Below are positions 109 through 18,025 of a stretch of DNA of 27,676 nt, piece by piece; the first letter of the stretch is position 1, and every line of letters starts with the position of its first letter. Source of the stretch: a virus. The stretch covers positions 1 to 27,676 of IMG/VR virus record IMGVR_UViG_3300044833_000024; one strand, written 5' to 3'. The notes beneath the pieces were generated by a model. That model was given only the letters and a program-made list of their open reading frames with translations, was not told the DNA's origin and ran no database searches. The position numbers were made by a program, and so were the translations under genes.

Positions 109-372
109 TTGTCTCTAGTTGATGTTGCTAAGGCCAATGACCGTCTCTCCACCTTGCATGAGTTGCGTGATCGGCTGGCCGCGGTCTTGGACGCGGCTGA
201 TGAACCGCGGGATGTTGCCGCGCTCGCACTGCGCCTGACGGATGTGTTGGCGCAGATTGATGCCATGCCAACAAGTAAGCAGGTAAGTGCCGCCGATGAA
301 ATCTCGCAGCGTCGTGCTGCCCGACGGGGTGGTGGTGCCAAGGATTCGGCACGTGCCCCGCGTTCGGGCTAA
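109..372 (+). CDS. Small terminase subunit-like protein
   Basis: This 87-residue helical protein lies directly before the large terminase. It carries the pattern seen in short actinophage small-terminase-like proteins: an N-terminal SLVDVA, a helix with ELRDRLAAVLD, then RDVAALALRLTDVLAQIDA, then ADEISQRRAARR and a basic, disordered tail. I chose the TTG at 109 because a GGGGGG stretch at 97-102 sits 6 bases upstream and the family motif starts right there. An ATG at 55 in the same frame would add 18 residues of cysteine-rich sequence that does not look protein-like. It overlaps the start of the large terminase by about 80 bases in another frame. The expected role is recognition of phage DNA for packaging. 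The family call is moderate because these proteins are short and divergent. Confidence 0.6.
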   Translation: MSLVDVAKANDRLSTLHELRDRLAAVLDAADEPRDVAALALRLTDVLAQIDAMPTSKQVSAADEISQRRAARRGGGAKDSARAPRSG

Positions 373-1738
373 TGCGTGGGAGGACGTCGTTGAACTGTCG
401 ACTTCTTATGGCCTGGAGTTGTTGGCGTGGCAGGAGAATGTTCTTGAGGCGGCGATGGGGGAACGATCGGATGGTTTGTGGGCGGCCAAGCATGTGGGGT
501 TGTCGTGTCCTAGGCAGAACGGTAAGGGCAGTTTGTTGGAGGCACGTGCGCTTGCTGGTTTGATGCTGTTTGACGAGCAGATGATTATTCATTCTGCGCA
601 TGAGGTTCGCACCGCACAGATCGGGTTTCAGCGGCTTAAGAGCTATTTCGAGAATTACGACGATTTGCGGCGCAAGGTTGTAGGTATCGGTAACGCGGTT
701 GCCCGTGAATATATCCGGTTGCGTTCGGGTCAGGAAGTACGTTTTGTGACCCGCAGTAAGAGCGCTATCCGCGGGTTTTCGGCGGATTGCTTGCTGCTGG
801 ATGAGGGCCAGATTCTGGGTGATCAGCAGTGGGAAGCGATTCTGTACACGGTGAGTGCTCGGCCGAATCATCAGATTTGGTTGGTGGGGACTCCGCCGGT
901 GTCGCTTGAGGAGGGTGTGGTTTTCGACCGGTTCCGAACTCGGGGGATTGACGGTAAGGATCACCGGTTGGCGTGGTTGGAGTGGTCGGCGGAGCCCGGA
1001 TCGGATTTGGATGACCCGGCGGGGTGGGCGCAGGCCAATCCGGCGTTGGGTGAGTTGATTAGTCACGAGACTGTGGTGACGGAGCGGGCTGCTGCTTCCG
1101 ATGAGGGTTTTGCGCGTGAACGATTGGGGATGTGGGGCGCCGGCGATTTGAGTCCGGTGTTTGATTTAGTGAGGTGGCTGTCGCTAGCGAACCGGGACGC
1201 ACCCCCGCCGGCGAAGGCATGCGTAGTGGTTGATGTATCCCCGGATTGCGCTTGGTCGACGATCGGGGTTGCCGGCGCGGTTGAGGGCAAAACCTTGGTG
1301 ATGTGTCATTCGGGTCAGGGCACTAGTTGGGTCGCCCCGAAGGTGGCTGAACTCGTCGCTGGCGGCCAGGTTGTTGAGGTGGCATTGTTCACTTTCGGGC
1401 AAGCTAGGTCTTTGCAGCCGGATTTAGTTAAGGCCGGTGTCGAGTTTGAGAAACTGTCTCAAATTGATATGGCGGCTGCGGCGTCCGCGATGCGGCAAGC
1501 AGTGACCGACGGCGCCATTACCCATGTTGGGCAAACTCAATTGGATGCGGCGGTGGCCGGGGTGCGCACCCGCCGGGCTGGGGAGCAGGATGTTTTTGAC
1601 CGCCGTGATGGTGGCGTCGATATTTCACCGTTGGTGGCCGTATCGGGCGCGTTGTGGCGGTGGGGACTATTAAAGCCCGCCAAAGCGCCGCAAATTCATG
1701 CGTGGCCCGAGGATTTATTGGAGGAAATGACGACATGA
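287..1738 (+). CDS. Terminase large subunit
   Basis: This is the 483-residue packaging motor ATPase and nuclease, which translocates DNA through the portal and cuts it. Visible motifs are a Q-motif-like LLAWQENVL (about 45-53), a deviant Walker A SCPRQNGKGS (73-82), Walker B LLLDEGQ (169-175) with the catalytic Glu, and a coupling motif GTPP (201-204). The C-terminal RNase H-like nuclease has a first acidic residue in VVVDVSPD (Asp316) and a last one in DGGVDISPLVA (Asp445). The length is normal for the family. The start could be GTG 287 or ATG 296, three codons later. Position 296 is better spaced from the AGGT at 281-284. The gene overlaps the small terminase at its start, and its TGA stop overlaps the next ATG as ATGA. 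No intein interrupts it, although this gene is a frequent intein target in related phages. Confidence 0.95.
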   Translation: MPPMKSRSVVLPDGVVVPRIRHVPRVRANAWEDVVELSTSYGLELLAWQENVLEAAMGERSDGLWAAKHVGLSCPRQNGKGSLLEARALAGLMLFDEQMIIHSAHEVRTAQIGFQRLKSYFENYDDLRRKVVGIGNAVAREYIRLRSGQEVRFVTRSKSAIRGFSADCLLLDEGQILGDQQWEAILYTVSARPNHQIWLVGTPPVSLEEGVVFDRFRTRGIDGKDHRLAWLEWSAEPGSDLDDPAGWAQANPALGELISHETVVTERAAASDEGFARERLGMWGAGDLSPVFDLVRWLSLANRDAPPPAKACVVVDVSPDCAWSTIGVAGAVEGKTLVMCHSGQGTSWVAPKVAELVAGGQVVEVALFTFGQARSLQPDLVKAGVEFEKLSQIDMAAAASAMRQAVTDGAITHVGQTQLDAAVAGVRTRRAGEQDVFDRRDGGVDISPLVAVSGALWRWGLLKPAKAPQIHAWPEDLLEEMTT

Positions 1739-1899
1739 AGTTGATTGTGGCGGCATTCCTCGAAATAGCTGGTGTCGGCTCCATCGCGGCCGGATTATGG
1801 ATGTTGACTCCGTGGCTGGGGGTTGTGGGCGCAGGTGTGGGGCTGGTGCTGTGCGGTTTGGCTGTCGACCCGCCCCGACGCGCTCAGGTTGATCCGTGA
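1735..1899 (+). CDS. Two-helix membrane miniprotein between terminase and portal
   Basis: This 54-residue protein starts at the ATG of an ATGA overlap with the terminase stop. Its own TGA overlaps the portal GTG (GTGA). Both junctions imply translational coupling, which supports it as a real gene despite its size. It consists of two hydrophobic segments, about residues 3-24 (rich in Ala, Ile and Leu) and 27-45 (Gly/Val-rich), joined by a Thr-Pro-Trp turn. It ends in a short hydrophilic tail containing PPRRAQ. The topology is that of a small hairpin membrane protein. No family was recognised. A holin-like or head-assembly membrane tether role is conceivable from topology alone, but neither is supported by a motif. 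Confidence 0.7.
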   Translation: MKLIVAAFLEIAGVGSIAAGLWMLTPWLGVVGAGVGLVLCGLAVDPPRRAQVDP

Positions 1900-3140
1900 G
1901 TTTCCTGTCACGGATTATGGAGCGTCCCGCCGAGCGGCGATTCTTCGCTGACTCTGCGTTCCCGACGAGCATCGATCCGTCGAACGTGGATGGGCATTGG
2001 TCTGATACTGGCGATTGGGTTACCGAGAGAACTGCGCTGCAGTTGATCGCAGTACAGGCCTGTGTGCGGATCTTGGCGGATTCGATCGCGTCTTTACCGC
2101 TCGATGTGTTCCGCAAGGTCGGCGGTACACGTACAGAAGTCACACCAACCCCGCCGCTAATCTTGCAGCCGTATGCGAAGCTGACTGCCTTTGAGTGGAA
2201 GATGCAGGCGGTGACTTCGCTGGCGTTGCGCGGCAATTCGTATCACCTCATTGTCGAGCGTGACCGGTTAGAGTATCCGACGCAGGCGATACCGATCCAC
2301 CCTGACTATGTTCGGGTCCAATTCAATTACGACACATATCAGGTTACTTACTGGATTCATGGTGAGCTCGTTCCGACTGCGGACATTATTCATATCCGCC
2401 GGTTCACGTTGCCGGGGTCGCCGGTAGGGTTGTCGCCGATCAACGCGGCCCGCCAGGGTATCGGGCTTGGGTTGGCCGCGGAACGGTATGGCGCCAGATA
2501 TTTTGGGGATTCGGCGAACCCGTCGAGCGTTCTGGAAACCGACCAGGAATTGTCTCCGGAAGCGGCGCGCTACGCGCAGCAGCAATGGTTATCTTCACAT
2601 GGCGGGCACCGGCATCCGGCGATGTTGTCGGGCGGGTTGAAGTGGCGGCCGATTCAGATCACTCCGAACGAGTCGCAATTTTTGGAGACCCGAAAGTTTC
2701 AACGCTCCGAGATCGCGATGTTGTACGGCATCCCGCCGCAGATGATCGGCGACACGGAGAAATACACGTCGTGGGGAACGGGTATTGAGCAGCAGTCGAT
2801 CGGTTTTGTGACGTATACGTTGCGGCCTTGGCTGACGTGTATTGAGTCGGTTCTGTCGAATTTGTTGCCGCGCGGCCAGTACGCCCAGTTTAATGTGGGC
2901 GCCTTGTTGCGCGGTGATCAGAAGGCCCGCTACGAGGCTTATCTGCAGGCCCGGAACGCCGGTTGGATGAACGTCAATGAGATCCGCGAGCTGGAGGATA
3001 GACCGCCGGTCCCGAACGGTGACGATTTCCTGCAGCCGTTGAATTATGGCCCGTTGGGGTCGGATCCGCTCGCTGCCGGGCCGGCGCCCGCGTCGACATC
3101 CCCGAAAACGCCTGAGGCCGGCCCCGACCCGATTACATAG
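1896..3140 (+). CDS. Portal protein, HK97 family
   Basis: This 414-residue protein forms the dodecameric ring at the capsid vertex through which DNA enters and leaves. Family-typical segments are seen in order: VQACVRILADSIASLPLDVF (about 52-71), ALRGNSYHLIVERD (about 107-120), IIHIRRFTLPG followed by GLSPINAARQ (about 165-187), and the clip/stem region IPPQMIGDTEKYTSWGTGIE followed by a long helix with TLRPWLTCIESVL. The C-terminus is a Pro/Ala-rich tail. It starts with GTG at 1896, overlapping the stop of the membrane miniprotein. It is followed by the prohead protease, the standard HK97-type order. Confidence 0.95.
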   Translation: MSFLSRIMERPAERRFFADSAFPTSIDPSNVDGHWSDTGDWVTERTALQLIAVQACVRILADSIASLPLDVFRKVGGTRTEVTPTPPLILQPYAKLTAFEWKMQAVTSLALRGNSYHLIVERDRLEYPTQAIPIHPDYVRVQFNYDTYQVTYWIHGELVPTADIIHIRRFTLPGSPVGLSPINAARQGIGLGLAAERYGARYFGDSANPSSVLETDQELSPEAARYAQQQWLSSHGGHRHPAMLSGGLKWRPIQITPNESQFLETRKFQRSEIAMLYGIPPQMIGDTEKYTSWGTGIEQQSIGFVTYTLRPWLTCIESVLSNLLPRGQYAQFNVGALLRGDQKARYEAYLQARNAGWMNVNEIRELEDRPPVPNGDDFLQPLNYGPLGSDPLAAGPAPASTSPKTPEAGPDPIT

Positions 3141-3149
3141 GAGGTCAAA

Positions 3150-4097
3150 TTGAGCAAGAAGAGTTTGTTGATCGACGCGCCTGAGCGCCGCGGGATAGCG
3201 GCTTCTGATTTCGAGTTGCGCAAAGCTGGCGATGATGGACTGACCCTTACCGGATACGCATCCGTGTTCAACACCCCCTACGAAATCCGCGGCGGCCCGC
3301 CGATGGGCTGGAATGAGGTGGTGGATCCCGGCGCCTTCAAGACGACGTTGGCCGCGAACGCGGATGTGCATCTGCTGATCAATCATGATGGTCTTCCGTT
3401 GGCGCGGACCAAGTCCGGCAATATGCGTCTGTCCACCGACAAAAAAGGCCTGAAGGTCTTGGCCGATCTGGACCGCAGGGATCCTGATGTGCAGAGCCTG
3501 GAAGTTAAGATGGCCCGTGGGGACATAGACGAAATGTCAATCGGGTTCTGGATAAAAGACCACGAGTGGAATGCGGACGAAACCGAACGTCGCATCACCG
3601 AAATATCTCTGCACAAAGGTGATGTGTCGGTGGTGAATTTCGGCGCGAACCCGGCCACCGGCGCCCAGTTGCGTAGCCTGCTGTCCGCGTTGGCGGATGT
3701 GGACCCCGAGCAGGCACTGGCGCAAGTGCGTTCCATCGGATCCGACAGGCTCACGAGAGCGCATACCGTGCTCGGCAAGCTGCTGTACGCGACTAAACGC
3801 GCTGACCTGGATGACGATCCAATGGCGCTGCTCGCCGGCCTGGACGCAACCCTCGATGAGGCGGTCAACTTGATCGCCGTGTTCAACCGCGACGATGTGG
3901 ATCCGGCTGTGCTTCAGGTGTTCGACCTGGTGGTAGCCGCGGAGTCCGTTGTCGATGAACTGATGGAACTGATGGGTGTGGTTGACCCCGACGACGACGA
4001 GGCCGGCGAGAGTACAGGTTTGCGCATTCCGACGTCGACAGCGAGCAAGGTTCTGACCCGTAAGCAGCGGCTCGTATTGCTCGACGAAATCTCATGA
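3150..4097 (+). CDS. Prohead protease (HK97-type, peptidase U35)
   Basis: This 315-residue head maturation protease is expected to remove the scaffolding delta region of the capsid protein and then degrade itself. The N-terminal domain has the family landmarks: LTGYASVFN (about 33-41), catalytic His79 in LLINHDGLPLAR, catalytic Ser130 in DEMSIGFW, and the EISL-x-DVS segment (151-160) that completes the active site. The domain ends with FGANPATGA. Residues beyond about 180 form an acidic helical extension of about 135 residues ending in TRKQRLVLLDEIS, which is longer than the minimal protease and may contribute to scaffolding. It uses a TTG start at 3150, 4 bases after a strong AGGAGGT (3139-3145). 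Its stop overlaps the next ATG as ATGA, coupling it to the Ntn hydrolase. Confidence 0.92.
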   Translation: MSKKSLLIDAPERRGIAASDFELRKAGDDGLTLTGYASVFNTPYEIRGGPPMGWNEVVDPGAFKTTLAANADVHLLINHDGLPLARTKSGNMRLSTDKKGLKVLADLDRRDPDVQSLEVKMARGDIDEMSIGFWIKDHEWNADETERRITEISLHKGDVSVVNFGANPATGAQLRSLLSALADVDPEQALAQVRSIGSDRLTRAHTVLGKLLYATKRADLDDDPMALLAGLDATLDEAVNLIAVFNRDDVDPAVLQVFDLVVAAESVVDELMELMGVVDPDDDEAGESTGLRIPTSTASKVLTRKQRLVLLDEIS

Positions 4098-4636
4098 CCT
4101 GCATCGTCGGTATTGAGCACGATGGCGGTGTCGTCATTGGGGGAGATTCCGCTGGTCTAGCGGGATGGTCTAAGACCATCCGCGCTGATGAGAAGGTGTT
4201 CACCGTCGGCCCGTACGTCATGGGATTTACCACGTCGTTCCGGATGGGGCAACTGCTGCGCTACCGTCTCGCTGTGCCCGAGCCCGACACATGGGACACC
4301 GATCGATTCATAGCCACCACATTCATCGACGCGGTACGCGGCACCCTCAAAGCTGGAGGGTGGGCCAAGGTGGACAGCAGCCAGGAAGCGGGCGGCGATT
4401 TTCTTGTGGGAATCGCCGGGCGGCTCTATCGAATCAGTGAGGACTACCAGTTCGGCCGTAGCACAGCGGGATACCAAGCGGTCGGATGTGGTGCCGACAT
4501 CGCGCTGGGTTCGCTGCACACCAGCGCGACGTACGACATGGAGCCGAAGTGCCGCGCCGAGTTGGCGCTTGAGGCGGCAGCCGCCCTATCAGGTGGCGTT
4601 GCAGGGCCGTTCGCCATCATCGATCACCCGAGTTAA
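4094..4636 (+). CDS. HslV/proteasome-beta-like Ntn hydrolase
   Basis: This 180-residue protein begins MTCIVGI. After removal of Met the new N-terminus is Thr1. Counting from it, Asp17 falls in GGVVIGGDS and Lys33 in RADEKVF, the same spacing as the Thr1/Asp17/Lys33 catalytic set of HslV and proteasome beta subunits. Further fold markers are a GFTTS segment matching the HslV GFAGG strand, VGCGADIALGSLH matching the SGGxxALxA helix start (with Cys for the usual Ser), and a terminal helix ELALEAAAALSG followed by an FAII strand. There is no propeptide, as in HslV and unlike PrcB. It is coupled by ATGA to the prohead protease and lies just before the capsid gene. A head-maturation or protein-quality role is inferred. 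The fold assignment is strong; substrate and oligomeric state are unknown. Confidence 0.82.
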   Translation: MTCIVGIEHDGGVVIGGDSAGLAGWSKTIRADEKVFTVGPYVMGFTTSFRMGQLLRYRLAVPEPDTWDTDRFIATTFIDAVRGTLKAGGWAKVDSSQEAGGDFLVGIAGRLYRISEDYQFGRSTAGYQAVGCGADIALGSLHTSATYDMEPKCRAELALEAAAALSGGVAGPFAIIDHPS

Positions 4637-4651
4637 CCCCCCCAAATTCTT

Positions 4652-4743
4652 CCCGACCTTCCCCTGGCACTGGGGCAGGTTGGGCACGTCCGCGCGCCCC
4701 TGGCACTGGGGTGCGGCGGCTGAACGGGCCTGGCACTGGCCGC
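4652..4743 (+). promoter_or_regulatory. Three tandem RNA hairpins with a shared apical loop, capsid leader
   Basis: The 142-base gap before the capsid gene contains three copies of CCTGGCACTGG, each as the tip of a hairpin with loop TGGCACT. Copy 1 is CCCC-loop-GGGG at 4661-4675 and extends over a 1x1 mismatch by CCCGACCT pairing with AGGTTGGG (4652-4684). Copy 2 is CCCC-loop-GGGG at 4697-4711, extended below by four more pairs including one G-U (4693-4715). Copy 3 is GGCC-loop-GGCC at 4727-4741, where the outer two pairs changed on both sides. The compensatory change and identical loops point to a conserved RNA element, such as a protein-binding leader, processing signal or attenuator. None is followed by a U-run. 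Confidence 0.6.
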
Positions 4744-4778
4744 AACAACATTCACTCCAAACAGAAGGAGGCTCAGCC

Positions 4779-6197
4779 ATGGCTATGGATGAGCGACTGA
4801 AGCGGCTTATCGCCCGACGGACAGCTGCAAACGAAGAACGCGAAAAGATCATCGCGCAGCGACAGGCGATTCACGACCTCGCCGACGAAGAGGCCCGCGA
4901 AATCTCCGAGGAAGAGGACACCGAATTCCGCAGCCTCACTGAACAGATCAAGCTCAAAGCGATCGAGGTCACCGGCTACGACGAGCGGATCAACGAACTG
5001 TCCGACGAGGTCGAACGCGACGCGAAGATCACCGCCGGCGAGCTCGCGGTACGTCGGGCGAAGGTTCGGGCGACCTCAGTGAACGAGGCCCGCACCTACG
5101 AGAAGGAAAACGGCAGATCCTACGTTCAGGACTTGATTCGGCACCGTCTCGGCATGGACGGCGACGGGCTGGCACTCCAGCGGCTTCAACGCCACGGTGA
5201 GGAAGTTCAAACCGACAAGGAATACCGTGCGCTGCTCCGAACGGACGGCAACGGTGGCTATTTCGTTCCGCCGATCTGGCTGATCGATCAGTTCGTGGCG
5301 TTGGCCCGCGCAGGCCGCGCCTACGCGAACCTGTCGTCGACCTCGCCGCTACCGCCAGGGACGGACTCGATCAATATCCCGAAGGTGGCCACAGGTACGT
5401 CGACGGGTATTCAGACCGCGGACAATACGGCGGTCTCGAATACTGATCTGACGGATACGTCGATCACCGCACCGGTGCGCACCATCGCTGGCGAGCAGGA
5501 TCTGCCTCTGCAACTGTTGGATCAGTCGCCGATCAACTTCGACGAGGTGATCTTTCGGGATCTGACGGCGGATTACGCGACGAAACTCGACCTGCAAGTC
5601 ATTTCGGGCTCCGGCGCGTCCGGTCAGGTGTTGGGTGTTCGTACTACGCCGTCCATCGTCACCATCGCATACACCTCTGGTTCGCCGACGGTGGCGCTGC
5701 TGTATTCGAAGATCGCCGACGCGATCCAGCGTGTGCACACGTCGCGATTCCTGGCACCGACCGCGATCGTGATGCACCCGCGGCGCTGGGCGTACTTCCT
5801 GGCGGCGGCTGACACGACCGGGCGGCCGCTGGTTGTCCCTAGTGCGGGCAATCCGATGAACGCACTCGCTACCCTCGGCGAGGTCGGATCACAAATGGTT
5901 GTGGGTGAAATGCAGGGCCTGCCAGTCGTGACAGACCCGTCCATGCCGACAACGTTGGGTGCGTCGACCACGGAGGACGTGATCCACGTCATCCGGGCAT
6001 CCGATCTGCTGCTGTGGGAGTCGAGCGTGCGGACCCGCGTGCTCAACGAGGCGAACACGGCTGGCGCGGCGTCTCAGGGCTCCAACACGCTGACCGTCAG
6101 GCTGCAGGTGTACGGCTACCTAGCCTTCACCGCCGCCCGTTATCCCCAAAGTATCGTGGAAATTGGCGGCACCGGCATGGTAGCGCCATCGTTCTAG
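4779..6197 (+). CDS. Major capsid protein, HK97 fold, with N-terminal scaffolding (delta) region
   Basis: This 472-residue protein is the main shell subunit. Residues 1 to about 130 are a charged coiled coil rich in Glu, Arg and Lys (for example NEEREKIIAQRQAIHDLADE), typical of the delta scaffolding domain removed by the prohead protease. From about residue 150 the HK97 core follows: LLRTDGNGGYFVPPIWLIDQ, the E-loop region with NIPKVATGT, the spine helix LQLLDQSP followed by DEVIFRDL, the P-domain segment TAIVMHPRRWAYFLAAADT, then GLPVVTDPSMP and the final strand YGYLAFTAARYPQSIVEI. The start ATG at 4779 follows AGAAGGAGG (4763-4771) at good spacing. An in-frame reading upstream of it is just open sequence through the hairpin leader. 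Confidence 0.95.
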   Translation: MAMDERLKRLIARRTAANEEREKIIAQRQAIHDLADEEAREISEEEDTEFRSLTEQIKLKAIEVTGYDERINELSDEVERDAKITAGELAVRRAKVRATSVNEARTYEKENGRSYVQDLIRHRLGMDGDGLALQRLQRHGEEVQTDKEYRALLRTDGNGGYFVPPIWLIDQFVALARAGRAYANLSSTSPLPPGTDSINIPKVATGTSTGIQTADNTAVSNTDLTDTSITAPVRTIAGEQDLPLQLLDQSPINFDEVIFRDLTADYATKLDLQVISGSGASGQVLGVRTTPSIVTIAYTSGSPTVALLYSKIADAIQRVHTSRFLAPTAIVMHPRRWAYFLAAADTTGRPLVVPSAGNPMNALATLGEVGSQMVVGEMQGLPVVTDPSMPTTLGASTTEDVIHVIRASDLLLWESSVRTRVLNEANTAGAASQGSNTLTVRLQVYGYLAFTAARYPQSIVEIGGTGMVAPSF

Positions 6198-6233: not shown

Positions 6234-6896
6234 ATGGATCAGAGATGTGGGTCATGCAAGAGAGAGTTACCGCTGAGTTCCTACTCGCCTTCGTATCGGG
6301 GGCGAGTAGGAACTTGGTGCAGGGAGTGTTTTGCTGCGTATTTTCGCGGTAGACGTAGTGCGGTGCCATATAAGCCGGTACCACATGATCCGCTGGTTTG
6401 TATTCACTGCGGCAAGAGCTATGTGCCACAGCAGAGAAAGCCGAAGGCGTCGTTTTGCTCCCGTGAATGTAAGGATCGGTCCAAGAAGGATCGGCTCATC
6501 GCCGAGCGTCTGGCTGCCAAGCCAGACCGTCAATGTTTGCACTGCGCGGGGCCACTTCCCCGGAAGGCCCGGGCCGATGCGATCTTCTGTTCGGAGGACT
6601 GCAACTCCAAAGCTCATGCACTGCAACGCAAGTTGCGGCTGCGGACGGGACAGGATGAGAAGCCTGGATACTTGCGGGCTGCGATCTGCAAGCGTGATAA
6701 GTGGCGTTGTCAGATATGCGGTCAGCGGGTGAATCCGAAGTTGGAGCATCCGCATCCGAGGGCTGCAAGTCTCGATCATGTTGTCCCCGTTGCCGAGGGC
6801 GGCATCAGCGAGCCCGGCAATCTGCGGCTGGTGCATCTGGTCTGTAATCTTCGTCGCCGGAATGTTGGTGGATGGGAGCAGCTTGCTTTCTTCTGA
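6234..6896 (+). CDS. HNH endonuclease with multiple zinc-ribbon pairs
   Basis: This 220-residue protein is probably a free-standing homing-type nuclease. It has three CxxC...CxxC/CxxxC sets: Cys5/8 with 29/32, Cys56/59 with 75/79, and Cys101/104 with 119/123. A C-terminal HNH domain follows, with Cys159/162, LDHVVPVAEGG (His182 the catalytic His) and NLRLVHLVCNLRRRN (Asn196, His201, Cys204, Asn205). The domain is complete, so activity is plausible. It sits immediately after the capsid gene. The ATG at 6234 directly abuts GGGGAG, leaving almost no spacing for ribosome binding, so expression may be low or the true start may differ. HNH genes inserted beside head genes are common in phages. In some phages such an enzyme next to terminase also helps packaging, but here it is far from the terminase. 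Confidence 0.85.
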   Translation: MDQRCGSCKRELPLSSYSPSYRGRVGTWCRECFAAYFRGRRSAVPYKPVPHDPLVCIHCGKSYVPQQRKPKASFCSRECKDRSKKDRLIAERLAAKPDRQCLHCAGPLPRKARADAIFCSEDCNSKAHALQRKLRLRTGQDEKPGYLRAAICKRDKWRCQICGQRVNPKLEHPHPRAASLDHVVPVAEGGISEPGNLRLVHLVCNLRRRNVGGWEQLAFF

Positions 6897-6916
6897 TATT
6901 CGCTGGGGAGAACTCG

Positions 6917-7471
6917 GTGCATGAGAGTGTGCTCAATTTTGTTGAGCGAATGCTGACAGTCGCAGATGTCTCCGGGAAACGGATCCTTGAAGTGGGCAGT
7001 TACGACGTGAACGGTAGCGTCCGCCCGTATATTGAATCCCTGTCTCCTGCACAGTATCTCGGCGTGGATGCCAGTTCCGGGCCACGGGTGGATCAGGTGG
7101 TGGATTGCACGCAGCTGTGCGCAGCGGTGGGCGACGGCTGGGACGTTGTGGTGAGCACCGAGATGCTTGAGCATGTACGAGACTGGCAAGCCTGCGTGAC
7201 ACATCTGGCCGCTGCTGTCGCACCGGATGGTCTGCTACTCGTCACTACCCGCTCCCCCGGCTTCCGGTACCACCCATATCCCGAGGATCACTGGCGGTAC
7301 ACAACTGAGGCGATGCTGCAGATACTTGACGCGCTGAATTTGAGCTGTCTGAAGCTGGAAGATGATAGCCAAGCGCCGGGTGTGTTCGCGCTGGCCCGTA
7401 AGGGGCTGGGATGGCAGCCGCATCCGGAATTGCTGGCTGGCGTCGCGATGGAACAGGTTTATGGCGATTGA
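6917..7471 (+). CDS. SAM-dependent methyltransferase (class I), probably sugar-modifying
   Basis: This 184-residue Rossmann-fold enzyme has the SAM-binding loop in ILEVGSYDVNGSV (about 24-35), an acidic residue after strand 2 in YLGVDASSG, and strand 4 with WDVVVSTEMLEHV (about 75-87). The region FRYHPYPEDHWRY resembles glycan or glycolipid methyltransferases. I chose GTG 6917 because GGGGAG at 6905-6910 is 6 bases upstream. The frame is open further upstream only into the HNH gene. It overlaps the following glycosyltransferase by 11 bases. A role in methylating a sugar placed on the virion by the neighbouring glycosyltransferases is inferred from context. DNA methylation is unlikely because no DPPY/NPPY-type motif is present. 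Confidence 0.8.
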   Translation: MHESVLNFVERMLTVADVSGKRILEVGSYDVNGSVRPYIESLSPAQYLGVDASSGPRVDQVVDCTQLCAAVGDGWDVVVSTEMLEHVRDWQACVTHLAAAVAPDGLLLVTTRSPGFRYHPYPEDHWRYTTEAMLQILDALNLSCLKLEDDSQAPGVFALARKGLGWQPHPELLAGVAMEQVYGD

Positions 7472-8735
7472 CCTGTCGGTGCTCGTCTGCTCGACGCACA
7501 CCCGGTACCGGACGTTCGGGCCAGCCATTCAACGCCAGGTATTCGAACAGTACGAGGCGCTACCGGCGAGCTACCAGGACCGCATCGAGATTCTGATCTT
7601 GACCGATACGAAAAGCATGATGCTGGGGCACAAGCGCAACTGCATGGTTGATATTGCACAAGGCCGCTACGTGCAATTCGTTGACGACGACGACCGCATA
7701 GCACCCGACATGTTCAGCGCAGTCCTTGATGCCACCACCAGTGACGCCGATGTGATCACCTTCCTGGCATCGGTAACGCTGAACGGTGGCCCGCCGAAGA
7801 TTTGCCGGTTCTCCAAGGACCACGCCGACGACTATGAGACGCCCGAAGAGTATGGGCGGCTGCCCAATCACATCTGCTGCATCCGCAAAGAGTTAGCGGC
7901 TAAGGTGTCGTTCCCGCACGTGGCGCGCGGCGAGGACGCGGGATTCTCCAAACTGCTGCATCCGCACCTGCACAGCCAGCACCACATCGACCGGGTGCTG
8001 TACTTCTACGACTATTCAGACGAGACCACCGAGACGCAGCTGCACCGGCCTGCTGCGGTGCGGCGGCGGCAACAGCCAGCCATCGTTGACGTGGTGGTGC
8101 TTTCCTACGCCAAGACCCCCGAGCTAGCAGCGATGACGCAAGAAACCGTGCGGTCCTGCGTGGCCACCGCCGACTCGCTACCCGTCAACGTCACAGTGCT
8201 TGAGCAGGAGGCGGGATACACCTACGACTACGCGCAGACAGTCCACGTGCCAGCCGCGTTCAACTACAACGCATTCGCCAATCGCGGCGCGGACCTCGGG
8301 TCGGCCGAATGGATCATGGTTGCCAATAACGATCTCGTCTTCCACGACGGCTGGCTGCACCACCTGCTGGCAGCCCAGCACCCGGTGGTGTCCCCGAAAT
8401 GCCCGCACGACGAGCGGCAGAGAGACATCACTGTCAATACCACCGGTTACACGATCGGTCGCCATTTATCGGGCTGGTGTTTCATGCTGCGTCGCGACTT
8501 GTGGCGCGCGATTGGGGGCTTCGACGAGTGCGTCAGCTTTTGGTATTCGGACAACGTGGTAGTCGAGCAGGTGCGGGCGGCTGGTGTGACACCGATGCTG
8601 GTGGTGGACTCGGTGGTGGAACATCTACGGTCTATGACGCTGAACCAGATGGCGAATTACGACGAGTTGACGCGGCAGCAGCAGGCTGTATTCGAGGCTC
8701 GGTATGGAGCGGTGACGCCGAGGGTGGATGGGTAG
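7461..8735 (+). CDS. Two-domain family-2-like (GT-A) glycosyltransferase
   Basis: This 424-residue protein appears to be two GT-A glycosyltransferase domains in one chain. Domain 1 (about 1-200) has LSVLVCSTHTR at the nucleotide-sugar strand, the helix MLGHKRNCMVDIAQGRYVQF, the metal-binding DxD in VDDDDR (74-79) and an acceptor-side GEDAGFS (157-163). Domain 2 (about 207-424) restarts with VDVVVLSYAKTPELAAMT, then has VANNDLVFHDGW (287-298, NND in place of DxD), a GWCFMLRRDLWRAIGGFDE segment (338-356) and an acidic SDNVVVEQVRAAG. The ATG at 7461 follows GAACAGG and overlaps the methyltransferase end. Substrates cannot be read from sequence. Virion glycosylation is known in some mycobacteriophages and fits this position downstream of the capsid gene. 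Confidence 0.82.
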   Translation: MAIDLSVLVCSTHTRYRTFGPAIQRQVFEQYEALPASYQDRIEILILTDTKSMMLGHKRNCMVDIAQGRYVQFVDDDDRIAPDMFSAVLDATTSDADVITFLASVTLNGGPPKICRFSKDHADDYETPEEYGRLPNHICCIRKELAAKVSFPHVARGEDAGFSKLLHPHLHSQHHIDRVLYFYDYSDETTETQLHRPAAVRRRQQPAIVDVVVLSYAKTPELAAMTQETVRSCVATADSLPVNVTVLEQEAGYTYDYAQTVHVPAAFNYNAFANRGADLGSAEWIMVANNDLVFHDGWLHHLLAAQHPVVSPKCPHDERQRDITVNTTGYTIGRHLSGWCFMLRRDLWRAIGGFDECVSFWYSDNVVVEQVRAAGVTPMLVVDSVVEHLRSMTLNQMANYDELTRQQQAVFEARYGAVTPRVDG

Positions 8736-8747
8736 CGGCTGGCTGGG

Positions 8748-9437
8748 ATGGCATCCATGAAAGTGGTTGCGCTGCTGTCCTGGTATGAGGAGCCGGCATC
8801 ATGGCTCGCGGAATGCGTTGCCAGTACCGCGAAACTGTGCGACCACATCATCGCAGTGGATGGACCTTACGCACTGTTTCCGGGTGCGTTGCGTAAACCT
8901 GCGAGCGGCACCGAGCAGGCTGAGACGATTCTGCACACTGCGGCAGGCGCTGGTATCGGCTGCACCATCCACGCCTCGCGTCAGCCGTGGTGGGGCAACG
9001 AAGTCGAGAAGCGGGCCTACATGTTCCGCCTCGCCGAGGGTATGGCCACCGCAGATGATTGGCTGCTGCGCATCGACGCCGACGAGGTGTTGACCACCGT
9101 CCCCGGTGATACCCGCGACAAGTTGGCGAAAACATCATTGGATGTGGCGAACGTGATCATGTGGGAGCGCGACGATTCACAGTTCCCGATCCGCGTGCTA
9201 TTCCGGGCGTTACCCGGAATCACTGTGCAGCAGGCACATTACGTGGTGACGGCACCGACCGACACCGGGATCAAAGTGTTGTGTGGGCATGAGATCAAAC
9301 ACGATATGGAACCGGCAGAGACTCTGTGGGATGTGCGTGTCGAGCACCGCAGTCAGCAGCGCTCTGCGTGGCGGCGGCGTCTGAAAGATGAGTATTACGT
9401 GAAAATCCCGGCGATAGAGCAGGTGAGTGAGCTATGA
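8748..9437 (+). CDS. Glycosyltransferase, GT-A/family-2-like
   Basis: This 229-residue single-domain glycosyltransferase opens with KVVALLSWYEEPASWLAECV, continues with HIIAVDGPYALFPGA, and carries the metal/nucleotide-sugar DxD in LLRIDADEVL (Asp110 and Asp112). A later GHEIKHDMEP may supply the catalytic or acceptor site. The start is ATG 8748 or ATG 8757. The second begins exactly at the first beta strand and is equally plausible. The stop overlaps the following ATG as ATGA. It forms a cassette with the upstream methyltransferase and double glycosyltransferase. Both glycosyltransferases are likely cytoplasmic, because no membrane segment is visible. Confidence 0.82.
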   Translation: MASMKVVALLSWYEEPASWLAECVASTAKLCDHIIAVDGPYALFPGALRKPASGTEQAETILHTAAGAGIGCTIHASRQPWWGNEVEKRAYMFRLAEGMATADDWLLRIDADEVLTTVPGDTRDKLAKTSLDVANVIMWERDDSQFPIRVLFRALPGITVQQAHYVVTAPTDTGIKVLCGHEIKHDMEPAETLWDVRVEHRSQQRSAWRRRLKDEYYVKIPAIEQVSEL

Positions 9438-13660: not shown

Positions 13661-16600
13661 GTGCCGATCTGGCTTGACGTAAATTCAAGATTCGATGAGC
13701 CTTCGGCGCGCCGCGCCGCGGAAGATGCGCAACGCTATTTTCGGGACGCCTCAACCCATATCGATGTAGAGGCTCGGCTCGATGAATCATCGGTACGCAC
13801 TGCGGCTGAGCGTGCGCACCGGATTTTTGCTGATGCCGGTCGTGATGCTGGGGATGACTTTCACCGAAATCTGTCCGGCGGTATCACTCGGGCAGCATCC
13901 GACGTTGAGCGCGCCTCAACAGATATGGCGAGCTCGCTAGGTAAGGCATCCGGCGCCGCCAGCGGCCTTGCCGGCGCTGTGACGCAGGTGGGGTCCAGCG
14001 CGGCTAGTTCGTCGGCTGCGCTGGGTCCGGTCGGCATGGCTGCGGCAGCGATGGCGGCGTTTGTCGCGGTCACCGACTTGGCTGGTATCGCTGCATCAGC
14101 AGCGCAAGCCTTGTGGCTTCTCCCCGCGGCGGCCGGGGCGGCGGGTGCAGCGCTCGGCACACTGAAGTTGGGCATGTCGGGTTTCGATCAAGCGCTCAAA
14201 GACATGAGCGATCCGAAGAAGTTCGCTGACGATTTGAAAGAGCTGTCCCCGAACGCGCAGCAGGCCGCTCTGTCCATTCAGGCATTGATGCCTGCGTTTG
14301 ATCGGCTCAAGAACGCCACGCAGGATGCGTTGTTCGCCGGGGTTGGGCAGCAACTCAATTCGCTGGCGAACCAGTATTTGCCGATGGTGCAGCAGTTGAC
14401 GACCGGCATTGCGGGGGCATTCAACACAGCATTCAAGGGTGTCACTGATCAGTTGCTGAAACCCGAAACCCAGTCCGCTCTGCAGACTTTCATGTCTAAC
14501 GTCACGGCGGCGTTTCAGCAGTTAGCGCCGGCCGCGGCGCCGCTGGCGAAAGCTCTCGCCGACATCATGGCGGTGGGTTCAGGTTTCCTACCGCAACTCG
14601 CACAGGCAGCCTCGCAGGCCGCGCAAGCATTCTCCGACTTCATCACTCACGCAAGGGAATCCGGCGATCTGAAGCGGTGGCTCGGCGAAGGCTTGGACAC
14701 GATCAAGCAGCTGCTGCCGGTGGCGGGCGAGCTTGTTAAACAGTTCATGGCTTTGGCGCCGATCGGGCAAGCAGTGTTGCCGGATATCGCCCGGTTTTTG
14801 AAGGACATCACCCAAATTATGCCGCTGATAGGGCAGGCGGCGCTGGCGCTGGGGCCGCATTTCGGCGTCATAGACGTCGCGGTCAAAGGTATCAAGAACG
14901 GGGTGGACTTGGTCAGTTCAGCGTTCGAGGCGATCAAAGGCGTTGTGCAAGGCGTCGCCAGCACTGTGGTTCCCATTATTAACTCGATCAGCTTCGCGGT
15001 AAACACGATGCTGGAACCGATTCGGGCTGCCATCGGCTTGGCGAACCTGGTGCCCGGGGTCAACCTCCCCAACATCCCGAATATTCCGAGTGCGACTCAG
15101 ACGACCGGCGGAACGGCTGTCGTGGCGCCACCGATTGCATTAGGCGGCGAAGCGAATGCCCAGCGCGAGCGCCGTGGCCTACCTCCGATAGGACCGCCTC
15201 CGCTTCCGACCGCGGGCCTACCGCCGGTCCCGGCGGGCGGGTACACAGTCCCGCTACCACCACCCCCCACGAGCGGCGGTGGTGGCGGCGGGGGTGGGGG
15301 TAGTTCGGCGGTGCCGGCGGCCGCGGCTACGCCGGGTGTGATGGTGGCACCCACCAATGCGGCGGCGGCGATCGCCTACGCGCAGCAGGCCTCCGGAACC
15401 CCATACCAGTTGGGTGGCGTCGGCCCACAGACCTTCGACTGCTCCGGCTTCATCAGCGATCTGTATGCGATTATGACCGGCAAGCCGTACACGGGCACCG
15501 AGCGATATTTCACGACGGCAAGCAATTTCGAGGCACTGGGCTTCCAGCCGGGCTACCAGTCTGGGGCGTTCAACATCGGTGTGCACCAGGGCGGCCCCGC
15601 CGGTGGTCACATGGCTGGCACTCTGCCCAACAACGTCAATGTTGAGGCCGGCGGCGCGTACGGCGGTGTGATGTATGGCGGCAAGGTTGGGGCGAGAGAC
15701 CCCCAGTTCGAGTCGGTGTATCACCTGCCGATCGATAAGGCGTTCAACCCGGGGGGCCCGCTAGGCTCACTAAGCACGCAGACCACCGGCACCCGGGCGT
15801 TAGGTATGTCGGGTGGTGGTCCGTCGGGTACCCAAACCGATCCGATCTATGTCACTCTCACTGGGCCGGGTTCGGGTAGTGGGCTGGGCGCGCTGGGCGC
15901 CGGCGCCCCCGGCCAAGGCGGCCCTGGCGGTGGCGGCGTAGGTTCTGTTGGCGGTCTTGGCGGCACGTTCCTCAACAGTTTCAAAGCCAGCGGAGGCTTG
16001 CCGGGGACTATCGCCGCTGCGGTCGGGAATATCGCGAACATTGCGAGTGGCACCTTCGACGGGCCCGGCCCCGAATGGTTGCAGCCGGGTACGACGGTGG
16101 CGCAGAACAACACTGGACAACCGCAGCAAGTTCTGCCGCCGGGGATGCCGACCGTCATGGGGCCGAACCTTCCCGGCGGTGGTGGTCCTGCGCCGGGCCC
16201 CCCGGGGGGTCAGCAGGGGTCGGTGCAATACGGTGCGGCGCCGGGCGCCGGGCCGCCCTCACCGGGTGGTTTCACCGGTGCCGGTGGTGGTGCCGTCGGG
16301 GCGGCCACCGCGGCGCTGGGCTCCATGTTCCCCGGCTCCCAAGTGGTCGCACAGTTGGCTCAGCGCGCCATCGGCTACATGGGTCAGGTCGCCGGCATCG
16401 GGATTATGGGCGCGATGGAAACCTTCCTGCCGGGTGGCGGCGGCGGGGTGGGCGACCCATCGAAGTCGTTGATCGGGCGCATCGCCACCGGTTTCGCCGG
16501 TGCCCGCCCGGCGCAGCCCAACGCTGCGGGTAAGGCGCAACCCCCGCAGCCCAAGCAGCTACCCGATCAGCCGCATGCGGGTAGCGGCGCACCCCCGGGG

Positions 16601-16729
16601 CCGGGCGGTCCGGCCGGCCCGATGGTCGTCATGAACAACCCGGTCTTCCAGAACGGCACCGACGGTCAAGCCGTCGCCCGTGACATCGCCCGCCAGCACG
16701 CACAGTACGGGGCAGGCCAACTCAGGTGA
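13661..16729 (+). CDS. Tape measure protein with embedded NlpC/P60-type peptidase
   Basis: This 1022-residue protein sets tail length and is ejected with the DNA. The N-terminus has an internal duplication: FDEPSARRAAEDAQRYF (11-27) and LDESSVRTAAERAHRIF (40-56). Then come long Ala-rich helices and hydrophobic segments (about 118-175). After a Pro/Gly linker with a polyglycine run (about 505-550) lies an NlpC/P60-like domain: AIAYAQQASGTPYQLGG, FDCSGFISDLY with Cys594, and GGHMAGTLPNN with His650. It probably cuts peptidoglycan peptides during DNA entry. The C-terminal 320 residues are Gly/Pro-rich with a few helices and end near ARQHAQYGAGQLR. The GTG at 13661 follows AGGTGGTGA. At about 1.5 angstrom per residue the length predicts a tail of roughly 150 nm. 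Confidence 0.92.
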   Translation: MPIWLDVNSRFDEPSARRAAEDAQRYFRDASTHIDVEARLDESSVRTAAERAHRIFADAGRDAGDDFHRNLSGGITRAASDVERASTDMASSLGKASGAASGLAGAVTQVGSSAASSSAALGPVGMAAAAMAAFVAVTDLAGIAASAAQALWLLPAAAGAAGAALGTLKLGMSGFDQALKDMSDPKKFADDLKELSPNAQQAALSIQALMPAFDRLKNATQDALFAGVGQQLNSLANQYLPMVQQLTTGIAGAFNTAFKGVTDQLLKPETQSALQTFMSNVTAAFQQLAPAAAPLAKALADIMAVGSGFLPQLAQAASQAAQAFSDFITHARESGDLKRWLGEGLDTIKQLLPVAGELVKQFMALAPIGQAVLPDIARFLKDITQIMPLIGQAALALGPHFGVIDVAVKGIKNGVDLVSSAFEAIKGVVQGVASTVVPIINSISFAVNTMLEPIRAAIGLANLVPGVNLPNIPNIPSATQTTGGTAVVAPPIALGGEANAQRERRGLPPIGPPPLPTAGLPPVPAGGYTVPLPPPPTSGGGGGGGGGSSAVPAAAATPGVMVAPTNAAAAIAYAQQASGTPYQLGGVGPQTFDCSGFISDLYAIMTGKPYTGTERYFTTASNFEALGFQPGYQSGAFNIGVHQGGPAGGHMAGTLPNNVNVEAGGAYGGVMYGGKVGARDPQFESVYHLPIDKAFNPGGPLGSLSTQTTGTRALGMSGGGPSGTQTDPIYVTLTGPGSGSGLGALGAGAPGQGGPGGGGVGSVGGLGGTFLNSFKASGGLPGTIAAAVGNIANIASGTFDGPGPEWLQPGTTVAQNNTGQPQQVLPPGMPTVMGPNLPGGGGPAPGPPGGQQGSVQYGAAPGAGPPSPGGFTGAGGGAVGAATAALGSMFPGSQVVAQLAQRAIGYMGQVAGIGIMGAMETFLPGGGGGVGDPSKSLIGRIATGFAGARPAQPNAAGKAQPPQPKQLPDQPHAGSGAPPGPGGPAGPMVVMNNPVFQNGTDGQAVARDIARQHAQYGAGQLR

Positions 16730-16735
16730 CCAACC

Positions 16736-18025
16736 GTGGGTGACACATCCATAGTCGTTGCTGTCGGCTTCACCATCACCGGGGTAGTCGCCGCAACCGG
16801 CACCTCCACAGCGACAGCCGCCACGGTCGGGCTCACCGCCGGCGGTGTGGCTGCGGTCGGGAAAACCACCACCTCAACAACCACCGCAGTCACAATCGGA
16901 TTGACCGCGGCCGGCACCATCTTCGGGGTTTCCGCCACAACGGTCACAGTGGTGTGTAAAGCCAACGGTTTCGTCGACGCGGGCCTCACCTGGCCGCCCG
17001 GCCAAGTAACCCCGTACGGCGACAACATGATGCTCAAAACAGTCGAACCGATGATGACGTACATCAGCGGCGACCTGACCAGACGGTTCTACATTCGTGG
17101 TGGCCTCGCACCCATATCGGGTGTGCAGGACGGCATTACGATGCAGGCGCTGCGCGGAATGCACGCACCGTTCAAACACCTGGATCAGCAGGGCGCCCAC
17201 CAAGACGGTGTCACCTGGAACGACACCGTCTACGATCCCGCCGAGATCGACATGACGTTGACGGCGTGGGCGTCGACCGCGGCGAAACTATCGCAATTGG
17301 TGCGCACATGGATCGCCTCCTGGGATCCGAAAAAGCCCGGCATCCTCGAATACTTCACCTTTGAGATGGGTTGTTGGTGGTGCAACGCGAGACTGTTCAG
17401 GTCGTGGCCTGATGAGATCAAAAAGTCGCCGCGGCAACACAAAAAGCACATATTTACGCATGCGATGCGCAACGACGACGCGTTCTGGCGCAGCGTCGAC
17501 AGTGTGTCAACATTTCAGCCGGGAGGCACCGGCGGCACCGGGTTCACACCCTTAACCAACATAGGCAGCGAGGACGGCTGGCCCCGCTACCTGGTCTACG
17601 GGCCCGGCACATTCGCTTTCGGCGACGGGCCGGGCAGCACAAACATGATCACGTTCGGACCGCTGCTGGCCACCCAAATCGTGTTAATCACAACACTCCC
17701 CAGGTTGCGGTCGATTGTCGACCTGTCACCCACCCAGCTGCCGCAAACCCTGTCCCAGGCTCAGTCGTTCATTCAGATGCTGATCAACTTGGTGACCAAC
17801 AACAACACCCCGCCACTGCTGCAGTGGTTCGAGTCGCTGTTCGGTATCCGGCCGCCGCAAGGCGCCCTGTACAGCTTGCTGAACGGCCGGTTCAGTAAGC
17901 CGATACCGGGTGTGGTGCAACCATCTGAAGCTGTCACATCCAACATTGCTGTCTCGATCACTGGCGGTAACAGTGCCAGCAAAATCGTTTCGGCCCTAAC
18001 CCCTCTGCGACGATGGCCCGAGTAG
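16736..18025 (+). CDS. Minor tail protein, Dit-like distal tail protein, with N-terminal GLTAAG repeats
   Basis: This 429-residue protein is the first gene after the tape measure, the usual place for the distal tail protein. Residues 5 to about 80 are three to four degenerate repeats around GFTITGVVA, VGLTAGGVAAVG and IGLTAAGTIFG, matching repeats in the glycine-rich protein at 24458. The following body includes RRFYIRGGLAPISGVQDGI, VTWNDTVYDPAEIDMTLTAW and EYFTFEMGCWWCNARLFRSW, as in mycobacteriophage minor tail proteins of this position. The C-terminal part includes SLFGIRPPQGALYSLLNGRF. It has a GTG start and overlaps the next ATG by 13 bases. Confidence 0.82.
   Translation: MGDTSIVVAVGFTITGVVAATGTSTATAATVGLTAGGVAAVGKTTTSTTTAVTIGLTAAGTIFGVSATTVTVVCKANGFVDAGLTWPPGQVTPYGDNMMLKTVEPMMTYISGDLTRRFYIRGGLAPISGVQDGITMQALRGMHAPFKHLDQQGAHQDGVTWNDTVYDPAEIDMTLTAWASTAAKLSQLVRTWIASWDPKKPGILEYFTFEMGCWWCNARLFRSWPDEIKKSPRQHKKHIFTHAMRNDDAFWRSVDSVSTFQPGGTGGTGFTPLTNIGSEDGWPRYLVYGPGTFAFGDGPGSTNMITFGPLLATQIVLITTLPRLRSIVDLSPTQLPQTLSQAQSFIQMLINLVTNNNTPPLLQWFESLFGIRPPQGALYSLLNGRFSKPIPGVVQPSEAVTSNIAVSITGGNSASKIVSALTPLRRWPE

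Follow-up and report, generated by a model that had tools for sequence, protein, structure and literature searches.

What would a proteasome-like hydrolase be doing between the prohead protease gene and the capsid gene of a phage? The question is raised by an open reading frame of the window, by which we mean the whole stretch of viral DNA analyzed here (27,676 nucleotides), whose product, read from an ATG start, begins with Met-Thr (Table 1). A previous sequence-only reading of the locus had proposed an HslV/proteasome-beta-like protease which might help head maturation or interact with the actinobacterial proteasome/Pup system.

Table 1. Features of the head region of the window, in window coordinates
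Feature	Position	Strand	Evidence or remark
Large terminase subunit	287..1738	+	PHROG phrog_9 8.5e-64; nearest phages mostly actinophages
Portal protein	1896..3140	+	Pfam PF04860 1.3e-91
S78 prohead protease (head maturation), with an uncertain start codon	3150..4097	+	Pfam PF04586 1.4e-31, TIGR01543 2.1e-25
Putative AAH-type Ntn hydrolase of 180 aa (proteasome homologue)	4094..4636	+	ORF, profile matches, predicted fold, alignment
ATGA, overlapping the prohead protease stop codon	4094..4097	+	Probable translational coupling
Thr1 codon (ACC)	4097..4099	+	126/126 Thr; predicted nucleophile after Met removal
Asp17 codon (GAT)	4145..4147	+	126/126 Asp
Lys33 codon (AAG)	4193..4195	+	126/126 Lys
Capsid-gene leader, three CCTGGCACTGG hairpin-like repeats (4663, 4699, 4729)	4637..4778	+	
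Major capsid protein, HK97 fold, N-terminal delta-domain-like region	4779..6197	+	Pfam PF05065 1.8e-20; start best placed at ATG 4779

Predicted fold and active site

The AlphaFold2 model of the window protein was built with alignment A3, which comprises 126 sequences taken from contigs of phages and bacteria, and shows a confident Ntn/proteasome fold (mean pLDDT 96.2, pTM 0.91). It has the alpha-beta-beta-alpha order of proteasome subunits, with helices H1 (residues 49-58), H2 (69-87), H3 (134-144) and H4 (151-165), a beta-hairpin at the pore-loop position after H2, and a chain that ends in a strand; residues are numbered with the Thr after the initiator Met as residue 1. The elements in which the sequence-only reading had recognized the fold are all present in the model, the GFTTS strand as strand 41-45, the VGCGADIALGSL turn as strand 127-131 plus H3, and the last helix as H4. 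As a single-sequence search of PDB with the protein returned marginal matches only, the fold was decided by profile search and fold comparison. The A3 profile reaches HslV (PDB 1m4y, 2.2e-7) and BPH (2.7e-7, full length), and Foldseek ranks BPH (TM 0.83) ahead of HslV (about 0.7) and the 20S beta subunits, so that both the profile search and the comparison of the predicted structure with HslV and PrcB speak for an Ntn hydrolase. The Pfam Proteasome model scores the window protein just under its cut-off (19.3 vs 22.4 bits), PHROG phrog_1040, labeled "peptidase HslV family," is matched by 126/126 homologues, and models of anti-phage defence gave zero matches. Alignment A1 (21 sequences) was too diverse for the collection scan, for which the narrower A2 worked.

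Thr1, Asp17 and Lys33 occupy the positions that had been claimed for them, those of the proteasome and HslV, and each is invariant across the homologues (126/126), as are Gly43, Gly130, Gly132 and Gly138. Fold and active site are, in our judgment, very probably right. Three other positions, equated with the proteasome by sequence alignment, appear to be replaced: that of Gly47 in the oxyanion hole is Thr in the window protein and Thr/Ser in 116/126 homologues, that of Ser129 is Cys in the window protein and in 103/126 homologues, and that of Asp166 is Ala in the window protein and Glu in most homologues. The oxyanion contact of the proteasome is made by the backbone, and proteolytic activity of the window protein is therefore plausible despite the apparent loss of Gly47. 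This replacement, seen in most of the family, would also suit an Ntn enzyme with a task other than general proteolysis, such as a specific peptide amidase or a connectase-like ligase, given that Ntn folds serve several chemistries and that connectase is a ligating proteasome homologue (PMC8665760). We consider such an enzyme unlikely, as the helical S3/S4 insertion of connectase is missing (short strands are found there, and all of H1-H4 are present) and the full proteasome triad is retained. In architecture, in its relatives and in host range the window protein agrees with AAH, a subfamily of proteasome homologues, and on these grounds of distribution and architecture we infer that it is a member.

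The head module and its cluster J relatives

The gene is located where it had been placed, with a canonical S78/HK97 protease gene upstream and an HK97-type capsid gene downstream. According to Pfam, the Peptidase_S78 domain is found solely in the upstream gene and is absent from the window protein, and the description of the latter as an apparently intact second hydrolase, of the Ntn type, unrelated to the prohead protease and ATGA-coupled to it, holds good.

The window is related to mycobacteriophage cluster J. All phages matched by its capsid (57/57) are Mycobacterium phages, and the top matches of terminase and portal are mainly actinophages. With cluster J (Omegavirus) it shares the series terminase, portal, S78 and capsid, followed by a methyltransferase and glycosyltransferases (as seen after the capsid of Superphikiman), a capsid of 58-62% identity, and repeats in the capsid leader that are common to Omegavirus members. 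The difference lies in the hydrolase: the genomes of prophiGD43A-5 and of Superphikiman (cluster J) lack any homologue of it, and their S78 protease gene is directly followed by the capsid gene. As these relatives pass from S78 to capsid without a homologue, the gene is most simply read as inserted into a cluster-J-like head module. No Mycobacterium phage is among the best places listed for homologues of the window protein.

A gene that adjoins and couples with S78, adjoins the capsid gene, and in three other loci (L044, L045 and L054) is found between portal and S78 might be expected to encode a second protease of head maturation, one that is packaged into the prohead and makes a site-specific cut in capsid or scaffold. 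However, AAH-free cluster J phages cleave a delta domain of the same kind from their capsids (PMC3706429), the window capsid aligns with those of its cluster J relatives with no domain gained or lost (alignment A6), and most intact AAH-bearing cassettes keep S78. The suggestion that the protein helps maturation is weakened by the first two observations, and we regard a second maturase as quite unlikely. Replacement of S78 by AAH was likewise rejected, since S78 usually stays alongside.

The region carries several other features. In the capsid leader (4661-4740) each CCTGGCACTGG copy is flanked for a possible hairpin with the loop TGGCACT, and the third copy has an altered stem that is still complementary. 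CCTGGCACTGG occurs twice each in Superphikiman, where the copies are located in the capsid leader, and in two IMG/VR contigs of cluster J size (G097, 110764 b; G098, 110865 b), on a single strand and nowhere else in the genome. The repeats might act as an RNA operator for the capsid gene; the fold of the whole leader RNA is no more stable than those of shuffled sequences (z -0.74). After the capsid gene, positions 6234-9437 encode an HNH endonuclease, a methyltransferase and two glycosyltransferases. A long protein with a short NlpC/P60 match lies at the tape-measure position (13661-16729), and a tail protein (Sipho_Gp37-like, 18013-20793) is apparently split by a putative intein that begins CLDSETEILT, has a weak LAGLIDADG_3 match and ends VYFTGN before TVEC.

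Placement of homologues and the role it suggests

Terminase, portal, S78 and capsid genes were located around the homologues by iterated local profile searches, in loci picked because their homologue resembles the window protein, a choice that may favor a head-type context. The homologue lies before terL in 30 loci, between terL and portal in 7, after the capsid gene in 7, between portal and S78 in 5, between terL and S78 in 4, between portal and capsid in 1, between capsid and portal in 1, and between S78 and capsid in the window, counts that include some near-duplicate contigs. All head-gene matches near AAH (187/187) share its strand, and couplings similar to ATGA are found in L044 and L045 (portal-AAH) and in L075 (AAH-portal). 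The test of portal proximity covered 30 contigs, each 25 kb or longer and with a portal recognized by Pfam. In 17 of them the portal lies within 5 kb of the gene, compared with 7.7 expected under uniform placement (p=2.2e-4), and after removal of the window and one near-duplicate in 15, compared with 6.9 (p=8e-4). A combined Fisher test on the portal distances reaches only p=0.012, since the gene lies far from the portal in a minority of contigs; the stronger of the two statistics is the count within 5 kb. On the tree, the state "head gene within 3 kb" needs 30 changes, at least 7 of which are forced by well-supported branches. The claim that a second head protease is unusual stands for this phage group but not overall, as the arrangement recurs across many other phages.

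The linkage to head genes is not universal, since in large phages (MTATph1, E3, OC, T5-like) the gene is surrounded by early genes or genes of nucleotide metabolism; around many of the bacterial copies, a stretch of 8 kb contains no head gene. Clustering of neighbors did not reveal an obvious partner family common to different bacterial genera, with many clusters consisting of spurious reverse-frame ORFs of GC-rich DNA. Diverged relatives occur in Arthrobacter, Microbacterium and uncharacterised actinophages. We also noticed that in eight viral loci, apparently of large phages, a gene that by eye looks like a RelA/SpoT-type HD hydrolase (7330-8004 in L060, with similar genes in 7 others) lies directly upstream of the proteasome homologue and shortly overlaps into it. 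Two Streptomyces prophage-like loci, L133 (AAH at 3465-4016) and L137 (AAH at 8001-8540), carry AAH upstream of terminase, portal, S78 and capsid, at a distance of about 2.2 kb.

None of 36 AAH-bearing viral contigs has an AAA_2 unfoldase above cut-off, in line with the survey of 2021, which found no AAA+ partner (PMC8665760); the window contig, which is a fragment, also has no AAA_2 match, and a host unfoldase could serve. That an AAA partner was not found in this contig is one of the points against a protein that would combine with, or take over, the host 20S proteasome/Pup-Mpa system. The nearest phage relatives infect mycobacteria, which do carry a 20S proteasome, and the idea of such an interaction is understandable on that ground. 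Yet the predicted structure is nearer to BPH and HslV than to PrcB, the family is also common beyond Actinobacteria, in phages and in bacteria that for the most part lack a 20S proteasome, and a Pup/Mpa link was not found; we regard this explanation as highly improbable.

It is possible that the gene is a moron-like accessory on a strong late operon, its product acting on host or defence proteins or serving protein quality control in general, and not particularly tied to head assembly. The variable slot, the copies in early or metabolic regions elsewhere, and the full head modules kept by the AAH-free relatives of the window phage are all in keeping with this, whereas the enrichment near the portal over uniform placement and the repeated, tight interposition between head genes argue for a closer relation. 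Recurrence in head modules suggests a role late in infection.

The explanation that we prefer, tentatively, is an AAH threonine protease that acts as a late accessory factor, separate from the maturation protease, and digests material of morphogenesis. In this view the gene entered a cluster-J-like actinophage between the genes for prohead protease and capsid; it would be translated with the head genes, and its product made late alongside the head proteins. Removal of the initiator Met would expose Thr1 as the nucleophile of a site that Lys33 and Asp17 complete, with no propeptide to be cleaved. By analogy with BPH, the subunits would probably form a closed, ring-shaped chamber able to work without an unfoldase from the phage, and the substrates would most likely be unfolded or peptidic, such as released delta-domain fragments and surplus or misfolded structural protein. 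Several points speak against this explanation. Besides the copies that lie away from head genes in large phages and in bacteria, the head region also receives accessory genes, such as the HNH, methyltransferase and glycosyltransferase genes after the window capsid, and the positions of Gly47 and Asp166, as aligned, differ from the proteasome. The accessory late protease and the general accessory gene are close in probability, the former being the best supported. A wider proposal, about which we are doubtful, is that proteasome-type chambers are a recurrent and selected part of the head-assembly module of tailed phages, a "head proteasome" gained several times independently, made together with terminase, portal, maturation protease and capsid, and clearing or processing structural proteins during morphogenesis.

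As far as the literature was searched, the repeated presence of AAH among the head-building genes of phages seems to be newly described and its occurrence in an actinophage appears to be a new point; experimental work on phage members was not found. Phage proteasome homologues have no known function, for which the link to head genes provides a concrete and testable hint, and cluster-J-like mycobacteriophages offer well-studied capsid processing, a laboratory host, and matched heads with and without the gene.

Comparison with known proteasome homologues

The kind of protein described here is already known, as a family of proteasome homologues seen in bacteria and phages, and 22 proteasome homologues were described by Fuchs, Alva and Lupas in 2021 (PMC8665760). 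The likeness to HslV and proteasome beta subunits that was first proposed was confirmed, but membership of either group was not supported. PrcB (20S beta) was rejected on a TIGR03690 score of 15.7 bits against a cut-off of 191.9 and on the Thr that directly follows Met, with no propeptide. PPH proteins are about 140 residues long and have no H2 (PMC8665760). The window protein, with 180 residues and H2 at 69-87, is for this reason not a PPH. Short Ntn proteins of Caulobacter phages (131-146 aa), which we take to be PPH-like, reach a TM of 0.53-0.54 against the window model.

With HslV (ClpQ) the window protein shares length, compact fold and Thr1/Asp17/Lys33, but the identity is about 16%, an HslU-type AAA_2 partner was not found in the contig fragment, and membership was rejected as no NCBIfam HslV model matched. 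The label of phrog_1040 overstates the kinship with HslV; it is also carried by T5-like, Vibrio and other phage proteins, and the annotated members examined lie outside head modules, unlike the window gene. The beta-proteobacterial BPH (PDB 5ovs/5ovu) is the top match of solved structure and likewise has an insertion at the pore-loop position, but it is only 19-20% identical to the window protein, whose family is of phages and Actinobacteria.

The closest agreement is with AAH, a group I homologue that is commonest in Actinobacteria, is named also for alpha-proteobacteria and occurs in phages (PMC8665760). The window protein has the compact group I fold with H1-H4, no C-terminal H5, no propeptide (the start is MT) and the Thr1/Asp17/Lys33 triad of this subfamily. 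Among the best 80 genome loci and the viral loci, its homologues come from Actinobacteria, alpha-proteobacteria and phages; the best cellular relatives are from Actinomadura (63%) and Frankia (59-63%), then Plantactinospora and Dactylosporangium (Micromonosporaceae) and Streptomyces, then Rhizobiales and Azospirillum, which corresponds to the published range of AAH. The difference is one of setting. The survey of 2021 had no actinobacterial phage with AAH and found its gene context uninformative (PMC8665760), whereas the copy in the window sits in the head operon of an actinophage, and together with the two Streptomyces prophage-like loci it changes that picture.
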